Assembly: GCA_003697015.1 (NCBI GenBank)
Contig: RFGL01000207.1
Location: forward strand, 1 to 34,381
Origin: Acidobacteriota bacterium
GTDB lineage: Bacteria; Acidobacteriota; Thermoanaerobaculia; Multivoradales; J023
Direction: 5' to 3'
DNA: 34,381 nucleotides
A program made the position numbers and the translations under genes. Numbering within the stretch: the stretch's first letter is position 1; each line of letters opens with the position of its first letter. Positions 2,431-4,548 of the stretch are shown one piece after another. The notes beneath the pieces were generated by a model that was given only the letters and a program-made list of their open reading frames with translations, made no database searches and was not told the origin of the DNA.

Positions 2431-4548
2431 TCAGCGCGGCGAGGGGTTCACCGGATTGGGGACGTCGGCACGGTAGATCGACTCCCACGCCGTCTTCATG
2501 CGCCACAGGGTTGCGGTGTCGAAGCCGGCGAGCTGCCCGCTGACGTGGGCCTTGACCACCTCCAGGGGCTCCCAGGTGAGCTCGAGATGCAGGCCGTCGC
2601 CGGTGACGGCGGCGCGGTTGAGCCCGATCTCGACCTTGAGCCGCATCTCGACGCCGGCGAGGCGGGCGTGGAGGGTGCCGTTGTCGCGGTAGAAGCCGTC
2701 GAGATGGGCTTCGCGGTCGAAGGCTTCGCGGCTGGCGAAGAGACGCTCCTTGACGGCGAAGGGGGCGCCGTCCTCCGGGCAGTAGACCTCGCAGTTCGAG
2801 CACTCGTTGCACGCCCCTTCGAGCACCGCCAGCTGGTGGGCGTCGCCGAGGGTGAAGCCGGCGCCGGGGGCGCGCTCGAGCTCGCCGCCGTCGCCGCCGT
2901 AGAGCACCTCGGTGGCGACGTCGACCGGCTTCGCGCGGTAGGCGAAGATGGCGTCGTTGGGGCAGGCGGTGATGCACAGATCGCAGTTGATGCAGTCGTA
3001 GAGGCCGAGGGTGCGCTCGACGCGGCGCGGGGTCTTGGCGTTTCTCGCCGCGTGGTAGCGCGGGTCGTCGGCCAGGTCGCGGACGACGTCGCGGCCGTTG
3101 AGCCGCCCGGCGACGCGGGTGGCGTGGATCAGCAACACGTCGCGCGGCATGTTCCTGCCGGCGGCGAAGCTGCGCAGCACGAAGGGGAGGGGATCCTTCA
3201 ACGCCGCCAGGTTCTCGCAGGCCTGGCGGTCGGTCTGGAAGTAGTCGGCCCCGGGCACGGCGCCGAAGGTCTCCCACATCGCCTCCCCGCCGTGACCGTA
3301 GGCCGACAGCACGTAGGCGTCGCGGCTGCTCGTCTCCAGCTCTTTCATCGCCCGGCCGAGGTTGCGCAGGTAGGCGGGCAGGCGGCCGTAGCCGCCCTGG
3401 CGCAGCAGGTCGGTGCAGACCGTCACCGGCACCAGACCGCAGGCCACCGCGACGGGGAAGTTCTTGGCGTCGATGCCGGCGGAGAAGGACGTCGGGATCT
3501 CGAAGCCGAGGTCGTCGCGGAAACGCTGCATCAAGGTCATGGCGATGACGTGCAGCGGCTGGCCCGAGAGGTACATGTAGGGGTCGCGCTGGGTGGGAAA
3601 GATCTCCGCGTCGTTGCGAACTACCAGGGTGTTGGTGAACTTGGCGCCGATGGTCGAGCCGCGCTCCTCGGCCAGCGGCTGCAGCCGGCGCAGGATGGCG
3701 AGGCCGTCGTCGTACTGGAGGTCGACGTCGAAGGCGGCGCGGTCGAGCTCCAGGTGGCGGTAGCCGAGACGCTCGTGGAGCAGCTCGCGCACCTCGTCGT
3801 AGCCCAGCAGGGTGGGGTTGAGCTTGATGATGGTGTGCAGGCCGAGCTCCTCCAGCAGGTAGCGGGCGATGGCCTCGATCTGGTCCGCCGGGCAGCCGTG
3901 GAAGGTCGACAGGGTGACGCAGTCGGAGATCGAGCGCGGCATCTTGATGCGGCGGTAGGGCTCGAGGTCCTGCTGCAGCTGGGCGCGCAGGCGGCGGAAG
4001 TGGAGTTGCGGCTTTTGCAGGGCGCGGATGAAGCCGGTCACTTTCTCCGAGCGGATCCCCTCGAGGTCGTAGCCGACGCTGATGTCGTAGATGGTGTCGA
4101 AGCCCGCCTCGCTGCCCTCGGGGAAGAGGCCGAAGGCGCGGGTCGCCTTCAAGATCTCGATCAGGTAGCAGGCCTTGGCGTACTCGACGATCGATTGCTC
4201 CACCGTGAGCTCCTGCGACCACTCGACGTTGTAGCCCACGTTGGGCACGTGGATGCAGGGCCGCGGGATCGACAGCCGGTCGTCGATCTGTACCGTCTTG
4301 AGCTCGATGATCCGCCCGCCGGCGAGCCAGGAGAGGACGATGTTCTGCGCCAGCTGGGTATGGGGACCCGCCGCCGGCCCCACCGGCGTCGCCGCCCGGC
4401 GGCCGAAGTGGCTGACCGAGAAGTCGAGCTCGGGATCCGGGATCCACCACTTCTTCACCGGCAGATCGAAGATCGAGCGCGAAGTCTCCGCCTCACGCCG
4501 CATGCGGCGCACCAGGTCGGGAAAGGGAATCGGTTCAAGCTCCGCCAT
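2431..4548 (-). CDS. ygfK: YgfK-like iron-sulfur oxidoreductase, short form without FAD/NAD(P) module
   Basis: This 705-residue protein is related to YgfK, the putative selenate reductase subunit in E. coli annotation, now tied to anaerobic urate degradation. The N-terminal 400 or so residues form the dihydroorotate-dehydrogenase-like barrel: ATPVGPAAGPHTQLAQNIV, LKTVQIDDRL, TLSTFHGCP, KLNPTLLGYDEV, CTDLLRQGGYGRL. Two ferredoxin-type 4Fe-4S sites follow, at C519/C522/C525/C529 and C580/C583/C586/C590; the second (CNECSNCEVYCPEDGAP) aligns well with E. coli. In the roughly 1030-residue E. coli protein a GltD-like FAD/NAD(P) region lies between barrel and clusters; here only about 120 residues do. 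Start: GAGG upstream of the ATG, and the conserved PIPFPDL N-terminus. The family is clear; the reaction of this short form is unknown. Confidence 0.9.
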   Translation of the reverse strand: MAELEPIPFPDLVRRMRREAETSRSIFDLPVKKWWIPDPELDFSVSHFGRRAATPVGPAAGPHTQLAQNIVLSWLAGGRIIELKTVQIDDRLSIPRPCIHVPNVGYNVEWSQELTVEQSIVEYAKACYLIEILKATRAFGLFPEGSEAGFDTIYDISVGYDLEGIRSEKVTGFIRALQKPQLHFRRLRAQLQQDLEPYRRIKMPRSISDCVTLSTFHGCPADQIEAIARYLLEELGLHTIIKLNPTLLGYDEVRELLHERLGYRHLELDRAAFDVDLQYDDGLAILRRLQPLAEERGSTIGAKFTNTLVVRNDAEIFPTQRDPYMYLSGQPLHVIAMTLMQRFRDDLGFEIPTSFSAGIDAKNFPVAVACGLVPVTVCTDLLRQGGYGRLPAYLRNLGRAMKELETSSRDAYVLSAYGHGGEAMWETFGAVPGADYFQTDRQACENLAALKDPLPFVLRSFAAGRNMPRDVLLIHATRVAGRLNGRDVVRDLADDPRYHAARNAKTPRRVERTLGLYDCINCDLCITACPNDAIFAYRAKPVDVATEVLYGGDGGELERAPGAGFTLGDAHQLAVLEGACNECSNCEVYCPEDGAPFAVKERLFASREAFDREAHLDGFYRDNGTLHARLAGVEMRLKVEIGLNRAAVTGDGLHLELTWEPLEVVKAHVSGQLAGFDTATLWRMKTAWESIYRADVPNPVNPSPR

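Follow-up and report, generated by a model that had tools for sequence, protein, structure and literature searches.

A gene on an Acidobacteriota contig (GCA_003697015.1, RFGL01000207.1; 34,381 nucleotides analysed over their full length, hereafter the window) raises the question of how a yanthine reductase might receive its electrons when it carries no domain for NAD(P)H. The gene, located at positions 2431..4548 on the minus strand, has an ATG start and zero internal stops and codes for a putative yanthine (2,8-dioxopurine) reductase of 705 aa, in which an FMN barrel and two [4Fe-4S] sites are joined without a FAD/NAD(P) module. The YgfK of E. coli reduces yanthine with NADH when SsnA is present (PMC12507026). 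The short YgfK of the window is probably a yanthine reductase that makes no direct use of NAD(P)H; its own 4Fe-4S clusters would be the entry point for electrons delivered by a soluble carrier, which is probably ferredoxin. No description of a short YgfK was found in the searchable literature, where YgfK appears only in its long form and UacX is the only FAD-less yanthine reductase.

Domain architecture and conserved residues

The short YgfK matches the NCBIfam profile TIGR03315 (Se_ygfK) with 406.7 bits and does not reach the equivalog cut-off of 835.3, because the match covers only profile positions 4-397 and about 912-975 (of 1012); annotation by this cut-off will miss short YgfK proteins. 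Profile positions 4-397 align with residues 4-402, demonstrating the presence of the YgfK-type barrel, and Pfam places a 4Fe-4S dicluster at residues 519-592. No Pfam match was obtained for a FAD/NAD(P)-like domain, nor for DHO_dh (PF01180) at E 0.001. The DHODH/DPD-type FMN barrel is assigned to residues 1-400 (3349..4548, minus strand) on the basis of the TIGR03315 alignment, Foldseek, VIA and residue counts, with the fold running on to a helix at residues 471-492. In the AlphaFold2 model (mean pLDDT 82), residues 40-491 form the DHODH/DPD barrel, the top Foldseek match is the pig dihydropyrimidine dehydrogenase (DPD; E 6e-7) and VIA-align places the barrel with the DPD-type fold at a Z of about 21. 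The Fe-S region is modelled with low confidence, residues 506-528 lying under pLDDT 50. A PDB sequence search yielded no YgfK relative, while the profile gave ferredoxin-like matches only. The two 4Fe-4S sites occupy residues 519-590 (2779..2994, minus strand) and comprise the motifs CINCDLCITACP (519/522/525/529) and CNECSNCEVYCP (580/583/586/590), all eight cysteines of which are invariant across 29 short-form sequences. The conserved barrel and paired clusters described in the initial annotation are thus both present.

Barrel and clusters are separated by a spacer of residues 398-518 (2995..3357, minus strand), which occupies the place of the Fer4_20 region and FAD/NAD(P) module of the long YgfK. 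The distance from L397 to C519 is 121 residues, in agreement with the earlier estimate of about 120, and ranges from 56 to 159 across the 29 short forms, as opposed to about 500-530 residues in E. coli YgfK and five further long forms. In the E. coli protein (1032 aa), used as a control, Fer4_20 is found at 453-532 and Pyr_redox_2 at 552-839, and this entire stretch falls within an alignment gap of the short form. The missing segment (E. coli residues about 455-895, about 440 residues; the short form is 327 aa shorter overall) does include the FAD/NAD(P) module, as the initial annotation had it, but extends further than was described there, since the GltD/DPD-type N-terminal Fe-S region (Fer4_20) is also lost. 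Nor does the spacer serve as a linker throughout its length, as in the model helix 471-492 is predicted to be the last helix of the barrel, closing it.

Outside the gap the short forms resemble E. coli YgfK, the barrels being about 36-41% identical over 400-500 residues, with the same active-site positions and a C-terminal pair of [4Fe-4S] clusters. Residues K84, N107, E109, S214/T215/H217, K242, N306/T307 and S328/G329 of the short YgfK are the same in the E. coli protein, and K84, N107, E109, S214/T215, K242, N306/T307 and S328/G329 are invariant in the 29 short forms. We take these invariant positions to correspond to the FMN- and pyrimidine-binding residues of DPD, from a motif reading against E. 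coli PreA and the DPD residues; in an hhalign comparison with PreA the alignment spans only residues 327-410 of the short YgfK, the remaining equivalences being motif-based. By the same reading, the position of the catalytic Cys of DPD is presumably taken by Thr215 in both the short YgfK and E. coli YgfK.

Operon context and the reductive urate pathway

Li et al. (2025) described a reductive route for urate in which XdhD produces yanthine, YgfK reduces the yanthine, SsnA and HyuA open the ring, and YgeW/YgeY and YgeX act thereafter (PMC12507026). The genes on the minus strand of the window are ordered XDH, AAA_14/DUF4143 ATPase, YgfK, amidohydrolase and SsnA. The amidohydrolase (1008..2429) is of the dihydropyrimidinase/allantoinase type (TIGR03178, 380.7 bits, over the cut-off) and is a putative ureidomethyl-hydantoin hydrolase with the HyuA role; a hydantoinase-type gene adjoins the short YgfK in most close relatives. 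The contig ends inside ssnA, of which the N-terminal 329 aa are encoded at 3..989 (minus strand; TIGR03314, 331.5 bits over 329 residues). The ATPase (4718-5869, minus strand) lies outside the operon in relatives and looks like an insertion, since YgfK and XDH are directly adjacent in the close relatives (L069-L076).

The relatives' operon runs from XDH through the short YgfK, hydantoinase, SsnA, a PLP enzyme (PALP, about 500 aa) and YgeY to YgeW and often YqeA. XDH, SsnA, hydantoinase, YgeY, YgeW and a PLP lyase are thus co-localised, and this operon is the reductive urate pathway of PMC12507026. The genome of the window, a MAG which is 96% complete in 500 contigs and of which the window is one complete contig, holds XDH, hydantoinase and SsnA in the window; contig C54 carries the last part of ssnA followed by the PLP enzyme gene, and contig C302 carries YgeY (74% identical). 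The gene between SsnA and YgeY was considered as a flavoprotein and rejected, as it codes for the PALP-family PLP enzyme. Two such enzymes are encoded in the L069 operon, at 13590-15092 (500 aa) and 17336-18616 (426 aa), both on the plus strand; no close YgeX was detected there, suggesting that one of the two may replace the diaminopropionate ammonia-lyase.

The XDH (5913..8573, minus strand) is an XdhAC-type molybdenum hydroxylase and putative urate reductase. It scores 905.8 bits against TIGR03311, over the equivalog cut-off of 830.45, and Pfam identifies only the fused 2Fe-2S and Mo parts, bearing out the earlier observation that this dehydrogenase lacks a FAD domain. TIGR03311 denotes a 'selenium-dependent' XDH, yet the window genome (96% complete) has no TIGR03309 match for the selenium maturation factor YqeB, the SDMH maturation protein, and selenium dependence of the window XDH is therefore doubtful.

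The earlier note had implied a link between the two enzymes, and within the window both are indeed FAD-less. The pairing is not general. In Terriglobia, the short YgfK is paired with an XdhD-type XDH having a FAD subunit, while a long YgfK occurs together with a FAD-less XDH at some loci (L057, L060 and L063), indicating that NAD(P)H entry can be lost at one step without being lost at the other.

Search for an electron donor

The window genes examined include no FAD subunit, as had been noted initially. Nor does the rest of the genome offer an orphan YgfM/XdhB subunit, each of the five FAD_binding_5 (XdhB-type) subunits adjoining its own Mo subunit. Continuation past the contig end into C54 brought no flavoprotein to light beside the ssnA end and the PLP gene, and the genome as a whole is without a Fer4_20/GltD-type protein. 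The proposal that electrons pass by way of a separate partner such as ferredoxin is thereby supported, with the donor itself named by analogy.

An unlinked flavoprotein, such as a TrxR-type ferredoxin-NAD(P) reductase, an ETF or a flavodoxin, might instead act as the donor, or the short YgfK might form a direct complex with XDH. The genome encodes TrxB-like and YpdA-like proteins, but the window's clade shows no conserved linked flavoprotein. The XDH gene shares the strand and cluster of YgfK, and its product likewise has no NAD(P)H site, but XDH would itself require electrons in the reductive direction. These arrangements are considered unlikely.

The enzyme could also have a different substrate, or work oxidatively with electrons handed to ferredoxin or quinone. 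The short-form hosts are soil and sediment bacteria according to their genome records, some perhaps aerobic, and the E606 signature of E. coli XdhD, which is kept in the Terriglobia XDHs beside short YgfK (L096:4319-6643 and L103:5696-8638), is missing from the window-type XDH. Such a role is nevertheless improbable given that the relatives' operon holds the full downstream gene set and that the active-site positions of the short YgfK are the same as in E. coli YgfK. Furthermore, the XdhAC of Clostridium sporogenes, like the window XDH of the fused 2Fe-2S and Mo type (a likeness drawn via the TIGR03311 family rather than by direct comparison), has been reported to form yanthine from urate when given an artificial donor, its physiological donor being named as an open question in a commentary (PMC12990295).

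A separate GltD/PreT-like FAD/NAD(P) subunit joining the short YgfK, the fusion being merely split into two genes, has a precedent in E. coli, where PreT joins PreA, and some Fer4_20 protein is encoded in 26 of the 32 short-form genomes. There are, however, no Fer4_20/GltD/PreT-type matches in the window genome (96% complete), and Fer4_20 is likewise without a match in the short-form genomes G363 (same family, 98%), G341 (97%), G396, G399 and G407, whereas 9 of 14 control genomes do give one. The operons of the window's clade contain no PreT/GltD-like ORF, and the top own-genome matches to the flavoprotein region of TIGR03315 are the TrxB-like and YpdA-like proteins. A split partner was on these grounds rejected for the window's clade and is very improbable overall. 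Across about 40 related loci, a GltD-like gene occurs in the cluster only beside two Verrucomicrobia copies, where a DPD-like fusion of 827-830 aa divergently adjoins the short YgfK (L091:7143-9626 and L106:4290-6782, both minus strand). This fusion carries Fer4_20 and Pyr_redox_2 on its N-terminal side and 4Fe-4S C-terminally, with a DHO_dh match in L106, where SsnA lies beyond it; it is possibly a second ring reductase or a partner.

Ferredoxin as the probable donor rests on analogy, since a motif scan of the loci in the window and its relatives revealed no ferredoxin gene linked to the operon, only one unrelated ORF of 426 aa. Two POR/KOR proteins are encoded in the window genome, and at least one in 17/17 of the short-form genomes tested. 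The family is common, being found in 11/14 control genomes, and its presence thus does not discriminate but permits, rather than proves, the ferredoxin idea.

Distribution and phylogeny of the short form

Acidobacteriota, Gemmatimonadota, Verrucomicrobiota and Latescibacterota together account for dozens of genomes with a short YgfK. Both forms occur among 396 Acidobacteriota genomes, with some 17 intact short frames, 23 long ones and a few more ended by contig ends. A recognisable YgfK is encoded in 12 of 249 Gemmatimonadota genomes, none of which shows the widely separated cluster region of the long YgfK. The close relatives of the window YgfK (56-70% identical) belong to the Acidobacteriota and Gemmatimonadota, and the more distant short forms include those of the Verrucomicrobiota and Latescibacterota. 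In a barrel tree of 62 sequences, the 49 short forms are split from the long forms by a single branch with 100/100 support. L065, an apparent short form within the long clade, was rejected, as it is a long form ended by a contig end, with the remainder in L066. Although the source MAG is fragmented (500 contigs), an assembly deletion or frame artefact can be dismissed, because the same architecture, with identical active-site and cluster residues, recurs in many independent assemblies from several phyla and separates cleanly in the tree.

As the tree is unrooted, it leaves the choice between loss and later gain of the module undecided. It may tentatively be suggested that YgfK began as a two-domain protein and acquired the GltD module by a later fusion, and that in environmental bacteria the urate pathway, with short YgfK and XdhAC, might run free of NAD(P)H and be driven by ferredoxin at both reductive steps. 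The short clade demonstrates that the YgfK family itself can do without the NAD(P)H module. It also extends the reductive urate pathway, whose 2025 solution lay mainly in gut bacteria, to the four phyla above.

Comparison with known FAD-less reductases and proposed mechanism

Ferredoxin dependence as an idea for the reductive urate pathway is not new. In Clostridioides difficile, XdhD and UacX have already been said to be without FAD parts and probably ferredoxin-dependent, with UacX being assayed with methyl viologen and ferredoxin proposed as its donor (PMC12507026). UacX resembles the short YgfK in its FMN barrel and Fe-S sites without a FAD domain, its pathway step and its FAD-less XDH partner, but is a member of PF01180, whereas the short YgfK has no PF01180 match and instead matches TIGR03315. 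The short YgfK would combine a YgfK barrel with the working principle of UacX and PydAc; it is not itself a UacX, and it fails the definition of the full-length YgfK. The clostridial PydAc, a DPD without the FAD domain that reduces uracil with reduced ferredoxin (PMC7332683), likewise dearomatises its substrate reductively without FAD, has clusters of the ferredoxin type and operates on the principle proposed here for the short YgfK. It differs in its substrate and in retaining two Fdx domains and hence four clusters (PMC7332683), as opposed to two clusters only in the short YgfK. E. coli PreA also combines a DPD barrel with Fe-S clusters and no FAD, but requires PreT, to which no similar protein is encoded in the window genome.

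In the proposed NAD(P)H-independent route, the XdhAC encoded at 5913-8573 would convert urate to yanthine (2,8-dioxopurine), the pyrimidine ring of which would be reduced at the barrel FMN of the short YgfK, with subsequent ring opening by SsnA and the hydantoinase, the partners, together with XDH, YgeY and YgeW, that E. coli YgfK also has. Electrons would enter singly via the two 4Fe-4S clusters (C519-C590) and pass on to FMN. Their source would be a soluble carrier of low potential; the likeliest is the cell's ferredoxin, which could be reduced, for example, by 2-oxoacid:ferredoxin oxidoreductases. Architecture, conservation, operon context and the lack of a GltD-type partner are observed, while the substrate, the FMN, the direction of the reaction and the carrier are inferences. 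Donors may differ between lineages, given the pairing of the short YgfK with a FAD-subunit XDH in Terriglobia. As a simple two-domain enzyme, the short YgfK is a direct test object for electron entry.

Two further features of the window lie away from this locus. Positions 21718-25668 (minus strand) encode a protein of 1316 aa whose C-terminal end holds a peptidase C25 (gingipain-type) domain, and three genes at 15880-19605 (plus strand) resemble by eye the binding protein, double permease and ATPase of an iron ABC transporter.
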